A DNA stretch of 64,000 nucleotides, from the NCBI RefSeq assembly GCF_007752135.1, contig NZ_CP036298.1, positions 2,604,001-2,668,000 of the forward strand, written 5' to 3'. The translations under genes were made by a program, and so were the position numbers. Below are positions 48,287-49,997 of the stretch, in pieces. Source of the DNA: Aureliella helgolandensis. GTDB lineage: Bacteria; Planctomycetota; Planctomycetia; Pirellulales; Pirellulaceae. The notes beneath the pieces are model-generated. The model worked only from the letters and a program-made list of their open reading frames with translations, was not told the DNA's origin and searched no databases. Position 1 is the first letter of the stretch, and every line of letters starts with the position of its first letter.

Positions 48287-48674
48287 TTTTCACTCCAAGC
48301 GCAGGAAGGATGGTTTCAAGGAGGGTAGGCTGGCTGGACTGGGCCCCACTTTCTGCACCCCACCGAATTCAAGCGGGAAGCGAATAATGTGCCCCAGGAT
48401 AAAGCGTTGCAATTCGGTAGCAACCTGCAATCCTCAGCCTGTGTGGGTTGGGCCTCTACCGTAGCACAACCCAAGCGTTTATGCGTGTTCAGACCTCGAT
48501 TTTTGCCACAAATCGTCTTCCGGCTTCCGGCTTCCGGCCGGGCTTGCCCCGGCGGAGCCAACAACTGCCAACTACCAGCCAACTACCAGCCAACTACCAG
48601 CCAACTACCAGATAGATATCCTAAAGCGGCTATGCAGTGCTCCGCTTCGGGCTTGCCCCGGCGGACACGGCGAC
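48287..48674. other. Intergenic region with left copy of repeat, 388 bp
   Basis: No gene. From 48518 on it is filled by the left copy of the direct repeat that brackets the transposase gene; the first 230 bases look like ordinary promoter-containing spacer for the esterase gene. Confidence 0.6.
48518..48672. repeat. Left direct repeat with REP-like palindromes (RAYT-associated)
   Basis: About 150 bp matching 49758-49897 in the same direction. It contains three CTTCCGG units, palindrome CCGGGCTTGCCCCGG at 48538-48552 (stem CCGGG/CCCGG), four copies of the 11-mer CAACTACCAGC at about 48567-48610 (two in the other copy), the block ATCCTAAAGCGGCTATGCAG, and a second palindrome at 48648-48661. 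Confidence 0.85.
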
Positions 48675-49463
48675 TCACCGCTCGTGCAAGCCCATTGCGC
48701 CGCGATTATAGCTGCCGAATGTCCCCGCATAGTAGCTATACTTCAGAACCGGCTTCATGCCGTACACAAATGCAATATTATTCATCAGGGACAACGCAAT
48801 CGACTGCGGTGATTCGGTCACTGAGGCACTGAGCAACACATGGACATGGTTGCTTAACAGACCAATCCTCGACAATCTCCACTTCTTTTTGCCGGCAGTT
48901 CGAACGATCATATCGCGTACACGTCGCAATTGCGTTTCCCGGATTTCATGCCAAGCTCCTGCATTTTCCACTACAATTTGCAACGCATTCAGGTATTGGC
49001 CATAAGTACCAACCACAGGTCGGGAAACATCGATCGTTACATCTTCAAACTGGATTGCTTCGAGGCAAGTTTGAACCGATGCATCGGCCATCGGATGTTT
49101 AGCTGTCTGTCCCGCGACGTACCGATCGAGAACCTTCGAAGTTGCGGCCCCTGTGCTCTGAACGTGATAATTTCGCCGGAACGCATGGGGAAGACAGTCG
49201 CGAACCAAGTACTGCAAGCGTCCTTTCACGACACGGACGATTTCTGCAGGTGAGGTATGGGGGAGGGTGCTTATTAGGAATTGGAGAACATTGGTGGAAC
49301 GTCGATGGTAGGAGAGTACTCGCACTCGGTCCTTCTCCGTGGCCCCCCGCAAGCTATCCAGCCAAAGGGCTGGATCTGGAAGCTCGCTTTTGCCAAACAA
49401 TGCAAGTGACCAATTTAGCTGGTACGCTGCGTACGTATTTTCAGCGGTGTAGATCGGTTCCAT
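48675..49463 (-). CDS. REP-associated tyrosine transposase-like protein (Y1), two-domain form
   Basis: A 262-residue relative of IS200/REP-type Y1 transposases with an internal duplication. In the first half (about 8-120), DRVRVLSYHRRSTNVLQFLI stands where HUH should be, so both His are lost, but the tail LPHAFRRNYHVQSTGAATSK then VLDRYVAGQ keeps the IS200 C-terminal helix with candidate catalytic Tyr 115. In the second half (about 145-262) IGLLSNHVHVLLSASV holds an intact His-x-His at 206-208, then SIALSLMNNIAFVYG and YYAGTFGSYNRGAMG, but the chain ends without the Tyr helix. One HUH and one Tyr, on different halves, would form a single composite site. REP repeats bracket the gene, as for RAYTs, which are host genes that cut and spread REPs. 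Confidence 0.78.
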   Translation of the reverse strand: MEPIYTAENTYAAYQLNWSLALFGKSELPDPALWLDSLRGATEKDRVRVLSYHRRSTNVLQFLISTLPHTSPAEIVRVVKGRLQYLVRDCLPHAFRRNYHVQSTGAATSKVLDRYVAGQTAKHPMADASVQTCLEAIQFEDVTIDVSRPVVGTYGQYLNALQIVVENAGAWHEIRETQLRRVRDMIVRTAGKKKWRLSRIGLLSNHVHVLLSASVTESPQSIALSLMNNIAFVYGMKPVLKYSYYAGTFGSYNRGAMGLHER

Positions 49464-49683: not shown

Positions 49684-49785
49684 CTTGCTTCTTGCTTCTT
49701 GCTTCTTGCTTCTTGCTTCTTGCTTCTTGCTTCCTGCTTCCTGCTTCCTGCTTCCTGCTTCCGGCTTCCGGCTTCCTGCTTCCGG
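49684..49785. repeat. 7-bp VNTR (CTTGCTT / CCTGCTT / CCGGCTT)
   Basis: About 14 consecutive 7-base units changing from CTTGCTT through CCTGCTT to CCGGCTT. The last units are shared with the left direct repeat, which has only three CTTCCGG units, so the array has expanded on this side. Confidence 0.9.
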
Positions 49786-49900
49786 CCGGGCTTGCCCCGG
49801 CGGAGCCAACAACTGCCAACTACCAGCCAACTACCAGACAAATATCCTAAAGCGGCTATGCAGTGCTCCGCTCCGGGCTTGCCCCGGCGGACACGACGAC
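49758..49900. repeat. Right direct repeat with REP-like palindromes (RAYT-associated)
   Basis: Same order and direction as 48518-48672: palindrome CCGGGCTTGCCCCGG at 49786-49800, two copies of the 11-mer CAACTACCAGC, the block ATCCTAAAGCGGCTATGCAG, and a second palindrome at 49873-49887. Together the two repeats bracket the transposase gene. Confidence 0.85.
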
Positions 49901-49997
49901 TCACCCAAGCCTGAATTGCCGAGCAGCCCGTCTCGCCAACTGGGCTCATCTGCCCTCCCAGCATTCGTAGCTCATCCCTTAGATGCTTTGAGGCGTT

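Follow-up and report, generated by a model that had tools for sequence, protein, structure and literature searches.

IS200/IS605 enzymes are a standard example of subunits that share an active site. Laboratory heterodimers of IS608 with complementary mutations were reportedly used to show this sharing in trans, and a trans/cis switch (reset) of helix alphaD about a hinge glycine has been proposed for IS608 strand transfer. RAYTs, in contrast, use a Tyr in cis. For IS608, passages of PMC5934647 describe the alphaD Tyr of one chain as working in trans with the HUH motif of the other; the metal ligands are D61, H64 and H66 from one chain and Q131 from its partner. In the parts drawn on here, a 2018 survey sorts Y1 proteins into 12 subclasses within three classes, describes E. 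coli TnpAREP as apparently monomeric, and sets over-long Y1 proteins aside as fusions or annotation errors (Quentin 2018, PMC6006769).

The window analysed here is a 64,000-nucleotide stretch of the Aureliella helgolandensis genome. One of its ORFs has Y1_Tnp (PF01797) as its sole Pfam domain, matched in two stretches (E = 1.1e-9), the best of which covers residues 41–119 and reaches the end of the profile. The IS200 model of NCBIfam scored 35.6 bits against a cut-off of 55 and is thus below threshold. On one side the gene is neighboured by a sialic-acid esterase/BNR gene and on the other by a gene whose radical-SAM match is below threshold. The gene and its parts are as follows:

48675..49463, minus strand: double-Y1 transposase gene, 262 codons (262 aa) from an ATG start in the ORF listing, with Pfam Y1_Tnp in two stretches
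49086..49463, minus strand: half 1, residues 1–126, Tyr helix kept and HUH lost (AlphaFold of half 1 alone, PDB matches)
49281..49289, minus strand: degenerate HUH position V59-L60-Q61 (H.H absent here in 75 of 75 members, Q61 in 60 of 75)
49107..49121, minus strand: YVAGQ with the putative catalytic Tyr115 and Gln119, Y---Q motif (invariant in 75 of 75, Y115 aligned with ISDra2 Y132)
48675..49016, minus strand: half 2, residues 150–262 plus stop, HUH kept and without a Tyr helix (profile matches, DSSP)
48840..48848, minus strand: HUH motif H206-V207-H208 (each His invariant in 75 of 75)

Both halves resemble single-domain Y1 proteins. A profile of 24 such sequences (26 loci, less four without a clean ORF, plus two proteins from the host's own genome) matched half 1 of the window protein at E = 7e-9 and half 2 at E = 8e-6; across the family described below, with E ≤ 0.01 for 75 sequences as the limit, it matched half 1 in 64 of the 75 members and half 2 in 73. 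At E ≤ 0.001 a family profile built from 28 proteins, A1, retrieved eight distinct sequences of solved structure, every one of them IS200-type. Among the five alignments shown, four fall in two stretches in crossed order, and that with 2xm3 is a single stretch on half 1. In the case of 2ec2, residues 4–77, which include HUH, lie on half 2 and residues 88–133, which include the Tyr, lie on half 1, each stretch being weak alone. Positions 150–224 of the family profile, in half 2, match PDB chains 2ec2 and 2f4f. The alignment of the half-1 profile with ISDra2 (2xm3) starts at residue 22 and runs through to the end, and the column of Y115 holds Tyr in 2xm3 and Phe in 2xo6, which is titled 'ISDra2 Y132F mutant', with Q119 corresponding to the Gln four residues on. 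Since this column is the residue altered in the Y132F mutant, Y115 occupies the catalytic position, and the alignment to 2xm3 and 2xo6 is direct evidence of this.

The full chain was modelled with AlphaFold on A1 (mean pLDDT 90.2, pTM 0.88), which predicted for each half the secondary structure, strands as well as helices, of a Y1 domain. In this model Y115 sits on a helix, residues 109–122, that follows the last strand and so takes the alphaD position, while the last eight residues (255–262) fall below a pLDDT of 50. When half 1 was modelled alone (residues 1–126, 25 sequences), residues 21–100 stayed at pLDDT 92–96 with a pTM of 0.71, and confidence fell from 87 to 68 for residues 101–110, from 83 to 58 for residues 111–120, from 94 to 77 for residues 1–10 and from 96 to 81 for residues 11–20. 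As the confidence of these blocks falls without half 2, half 2 contributes, in the prediction, to the placing of both the Tyr helix and the strand at the N-terminus; an end effect of the cut at residue 126 could account for part of the drop at the Tyr helix. In a Foldseek search with half 1 alone, all 29 PDB chains at E ≤ 0.001 were IS200/IS605-type transposases. The best true matches of the full chain were IS200-type, with the E. coli RAYT 4er8 at rank 47; matches of the full chain over 240 columns to designed cages and shell proteins, at an rmsd near 18, were discarded as meaningless. An earlier note on this DNA, made from the sequence alone, had proposed that half 1 ends in an IS200-like helix with a candidate Tyr at 115, and would have been contradicted had half 1 not been a Y1 fold or had the Tyr belonged to some other helix. 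The predicted fold of half 1, the predicted position of helix 109–122 and the alignment with ISDra2 Y132 all agree with that proposal.

One alternative places the active sites between chains: two double-Y1 chains would dimerise, with Y115 and Q119 of each serving the HUH motif of the other, giving two composite sites. This arrangement predicts the same set of invariant residues, and the helix is swapped between chains in IS608 dimers according to the passages cited above (PMC5934647). However, the single chain is itself predicted well (pTM 0.88), and it is a half 2 in the same chain that raises the confidence of the helix in the models; we regard sites between chains as unlikely. Coevolution between the Tyr helix and half 2 was dominated by subfamily signal (Neff 56).

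The earlier note had suggested looking for the same split in other planctomycetes, and it was found in all 75 distinct members, which come from the host's phylum. ORFs counted as members when their coverage of the profile began no later than position 50 and reached at least position 225, residue identity being no criterion. This coverage was found in 82 ORFs, of which 75 are distinct, the window's included; three of the 75 (L029, L087 and L096) are cut or lesioned near one end. Pairwise identity ranges from 14 to 98% with a median of 33%, and there are 55 clusters at 70% identity; a relative from Rhodopirellula sallentina is 64% identical to the window protein. In the host family, 47 of 241 genomes contained a match at E ≤ 0.001, a count that includes fragments (e.g. 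G093) and at least one genome with a single-domain IS200 match only (G608, L115). Three wider searches at the phylum/class level matched 37 of 392 genomes, only four of which span both halves (G000, G259, G312 and G327); 37 of 297 genomes, many of these matches being single-domain IS200 proteins; and seven of 392 genomes, only G327 being double. The one search of cellular genomes that reached beyond the phylum used the single sequence from the window and confirmed two loci, both in records with planctomycete titles; more distant members may occur elsewhere. For carriage by mobile elements, 54 stretches of viral contigs fit a pattern with none confirmed as a relative, and no confirmed relative was found on plasmids or phages.

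In the host genome, a single contig of 8.44 Mb, a Pfam search gave seven matches to Y1_Tnp, of which five lie outside the two double-Y1 genes; L129 and L130, two of the host's Y1 proteins among those read, are single-domain with Y---Q and HH. As for near-identical copies, the host genome holds one intact and one interrupted double-Y1 gene, the interrupted copy being 63–64% identical to the window protein. Genome G096 carries two double-Y1 copies, L032 and L093, that are 98% identical, along with three further matches, and this identity argues for recent duplication or movement in places; the pair is a candidate for recent movement. A separate locus, L116:684-1457, encodes a fusion of a Y1 domain, in which HUH reads H-V-V, with the DNA-binding domain of LexA, possibly a regulator derived from a dead transposase.

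Of the 262 columns, only five are invariant in all 75 members: G105, Y115, Q119, H206 and H208. G105 stands at Tyr minus 10, which we take to be the spacing of the IS608 hinge glycine, and the catalytic residues make up the other four. At the HUH position of half 1, Q61 occupies the place of the second His and H.H is present in none of the 75; an H-x-H pair occurs elsewhere in half 1 in five of the 75. Half 2 stops 12 residues past its own hinge glycine, G250. The earlier reading of a degenerate HUH in half 1, an intact one at 206–208 and a half 2 that ends before any Tyr helix is thus borne out, and Q119, which that note overlooked, is equally invariant and completes the active-site set. With four catalytic residues among five invariant columns of 262, the complementary split goes beyond chance. 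A domesticated, non-catalytic protein that binds hairpins would account for the loss of one of two ancestral sites and for the REP-like neighbours described below; yet lost catalysis predicts the opposite of a family in which four of the five exceptionless residues are catalytic, and we consider this reading highly improbable.

A second set of comparisons concerns the tail of half 2. In half 1, the Tyr and Gln at hinge +10 and +14 are present in 75 of 75. In a deep branch of seven proteins, the helix after half 2 is retained, and the residue at hinge +10 is Tyr in four, Phe in one and His in two, with Gln at +14 in none. The main group (n = 68) has a short tail; 24 of its members stop short of +10, L029 and L087 among them owing to a cut ORF, and one, L052, has a Tyr at +10 by count. 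From these sequences the second Tyr helix looks to have been lost by stepwise decay. L043, L058 and L132 and, by count, L108 keep the half 2 Tyr at +10; with HUH and a correctly spaced Tyr in the one half, these four may have a cis site. Extended to the family, a cis site would pair the HUH motif of half 2 with a Tyr in its own tail, Y252, and leave half 1 as a mere binding or scaffold domain. Position 252 is indeed Tyr in 63 of 75 members, and a cis Tyr at +10 is possible in the four proteins just named. Y252 itself, however, lies at hinge +2 rather than +10 and is A, L or I in seven members, and it was rejected as the nucleophile on the grounds of this spacing and its variation. Half 1 would, moreover, not need Y115 or Q119 in a cis enzyme, yet both are present in 75 of 75; we therefore hold a cis site in half 2 to be very unlikely as the general arrangement. 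The fused dimer with one active site that the earlier note proposed thus stands as the best reading of the sequences, which combine complementary residue loss with a composite set invariant in 75 of 75.

To place the two halves relative to each other, a domain tree was built by a quick method over 130 columns from 72 domains, namely 24 half 1s and 24 half 2s (from 24 of the 75 proteins) and 24 single-domain sequences. Each half formed one side of a branch with an SH-aLRT of 97, and the inner order was similar, as expected if the two-domain chain arose once, long ago. Constraining the halves as sisters was neither favoured nor rejected (AU p 0.52), and fusion of two different class-1 enzymes is for this reason possible. 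The domain tree cannot separate internal duplication from fusion, and we dropped duplication as a fact: two Y1 domains in one chain, as the earlier note had it, are found, while duplication as their origin is not established. In the 24 closest pairs, some of which share members, dN/dS was 0.05–0.34 for half 1 and 0.05–0.29 for half 2, with dS above 1 in several pairs. Each half is under purifying selection in these close pairs.

Some copies in the family are broken, and part of the family is on this evidence decaying. Among 24 partial or broken loci inspected, several of them cut by contig ends, seven are nearly whole with a single frame lesion. In five of the seven (L035, L036, L037, L038 and L044) the lesion falls at about residues 146–159, the junction of the halves, a clustering that was noted post hoc. 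An enzyme split over two genes was considered for these loci and set aside, since the lesions are unrelated and no convincing start of half 2 was seen, and they are treated as decay. In the second copy of the host genome (L038; G000:C1:6192963-6194051), an insertion of ~290 bases between the halves has imperfect inverted terminal repeats of ~16 bases and a short target repeat on both sides. Several broken relatives and an interrupted second copy in the host are what would be expected if decaying IS200 copies had been fused by accident or if the gene were an annotation artefact. Against this, the family comprises 75 distinct long ORFs in 55 clusters at 70% identity, dN/dS is well under 1 in each half, and each half has a single origin; accident or artefact is the least probable of the readings weighed here, and barely credible.

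The gene lies amid REP-like hairpins and repeats, two overlapping families of which are termed D2 and D3:

48540..48556, plus strand: REP-like hairpin core GGGCTTGCCCCGGCGGA, downstream of the gene
48649..48665, plus strand: REP-like hairpin core, adjoining the stop codon
49580..49596, minus strand: REP-like hairpin core, upstream of the gene
49788..49804, plus strand: REP-like hairpin core, upstream of the gene
49875..49891, plus strand: REP-like hairpin core, upstream of the gene
48514..48679: direct repeat block with REP-like hairpins, downstream copy (identity with the upstream copy 96% for D2 and 95% for D3)
49762..49905: direct repeat block, upstream copy, families D2 and D3

The GGGCTTGCCCCGGCGGA core occurs 17 times in the host genome with at most one mismatch, versus 0 for the reversed control, and seven of the 17 copies lie at the two double-Y1 loci. 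Elsewhere in this genome, three REP-like cores at L164 (G000:C1:500444, 501125 and 501806) are spaced exactly 681 bases apart, suggesting a tandem block away from both double-Y1 loci.

Repeats common to both flanks were scored at the 61 of 75 loci with at least 500 bases on either side, using 120 cross-locus matches as the reference. The best match between upstream and downstream flanks exceeded the 95th percentile of the cross-locus matches at 60 of 61 loci and exceeded all 120 at 41. In a control within the window, comprising 29 non-overlapping ORFs of at least 200 aa, the focal gene scored 85 and the next 16, with a median of 11. A further control took 23 loci with single-domain Y1 genes; 20 were scorable, and the nine of class 1.1 scored 9–14. 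The single-domain loci with Y---Q--HH behave differently: 10 of 11 (L062, L064, L066, L067, L069, L072, L073, L076, L124 and L130) have shared flank repeats and score 28–109, and L063 scores 12. Shared flank repeats are therefore not peculiar to the double enzyme. For subclass 1.2, the REP column of a table in the 2018 survey reads 'no' (PMC6006769). Folding of the shared repeats at the double-Y1 loci against shuffles gave a median z of -2.06, with values below -2 in 30 of 60 and below -1 in 47 of 60. REP hairpins flanking the gene, which serve as the RAYT criterion (REPtron), are thus found in the double-Y1 family.

Across genomes, the window-type core GGGCTTGYCCCGGNGGA was present in 20 of the 47 matching genomes versus 15 of 194 others (Fisher p 6e-8, kinship ignored), and five or more copies were present in 11 of 47 versus 2 of 194. 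The count covers one REP type, and by it 27 of the 47 gene-bearing genomes are without a window-type core. Two genomes, G106 and G083, have 16 and 10 window-type cores, yet are without a match at E ≤ 0.001; their cores may be served by another enzyme, or the gene may have been lost.

Taking these data together, we consider it likely that the window protein is a single-chain pseudo-dimer of two class-1 (IS200-type) Y1 domains with one composite site that processes REP-like hairpins. With somewhat less assurance, though still on the favourable side of even, we read it as two complementarily dead IS200-type domains fused into a natural, obligately trans, single-site Y1 enzyme. The Tyr helix of half 1, carrying the presumed nucleophile Y115 and metal ligand Q119, would dock onto half 2, whose H206 and H208 would give the remaining metal ligands, so that the trans arrangement of the IS608 dimer would be built into one polypeptide. 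The HUH motif of half 1 and the Tyr helix of half 2 would have been lost by complementary decay, and this complementary loss would mean that one site of the IS200 dimer is gone and the other fixed in trans. REP-like single-strand hairpins beside the gene would be bound, nicked via a 5'-phosphotyrosine and rejoined, as by RAYT/TnpAREP but with a fused dimer. We infer in this the proximity of Tyr and HUH in space, their pairing within the chain, catalysis, and REPs as the substrate.

Among titles and the beginnings of abstracts in the open-licence literature, no description of a double-Y1 transposase was found, also when tandem or composite HUH enzymes were looked for, in keeping with the earlier note, which knew no described Y1 enzyme of fused form. 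The family may have been missed through the exclusion of over-long Y1 proteins, and our guess is that double-Y1 proteins were themselves among those excluded. If the pseudo-dimer reading is true, the second site for the trans/cis reset of IS608 strand transfer is absent, and a lineage with a fused pair and one site deleted is a direct test of where single-strand transposition depends on a second site. The family would also show that a dimeric IS transposase can turn into a REP-processing enzyme with one site independently of the monomeric RAYTs, a second path to REP-associated enzymes. It would offer, in addition, a one-site Y1 nuclease with covalently joined halves, each of which can be mutated independently.

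Compared with TnpA of IS200/IS605 elements (IS608, ISDra2; subclass 1.1), the double-Y1 proteins share the Y1 fold, HUH and Y---Q and, as the split of the residues implies, a Tyr and HUH from different domains. TnpA, however, is a domain of ~150 aa with HUH and Y---Q together and has two sites, whereas here 262 aa hold HUH in half 2 and Y---Q in half 1, leaving one site, with half 1 lacking HUH and half 2 lacking the Tyr helix; the nine loci of the subclass-1.1 type are also without the repeats common to both flanks that double-Y1 loci have. Subclass 1.2 (Y---Q--HH) shares Y---Q, present in 75 of 75, and in part the following His residues (at 122 in 30 of 75 and at 123 in 50 of 75), and its single-domain loci in these genomes share the flank repeats (10 of 11), but its HUH and Tyr lie together in a single domain rather than being split over two. 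Class 3 likewise occurs in Planctomycetes with atypical REP-like structures but, in the passages of the survey used here, has Y----Q (Gln at +5), a median length of 178 aa, and HUH and Tyr in one core domain (Quentin 2018, PMC6006769); the Gln of the double-Y1 proteins is at +4, not +5, in 75 of 75. With RAYT/TnpAREP (class 2, E. coli 4ER8), the family has in common a gene amid REP-like hairpins and, as expected, one site per chain. It differs from RAYTs in its two Y1 domains, with the Tyr coming from the other domain, and in having Y115-x3-Q119 in 75 of 75 where RAYTs have Y---NP, and the similarity of 4er8 to the family profile is weaker (E = 0.78). By the features compared, the double-Y1 protein belongs neither with the standard IS200 transposases nor with the RAYTs, though its expected mode of action is that of a trans IS200 site in the setting of a RAYT.
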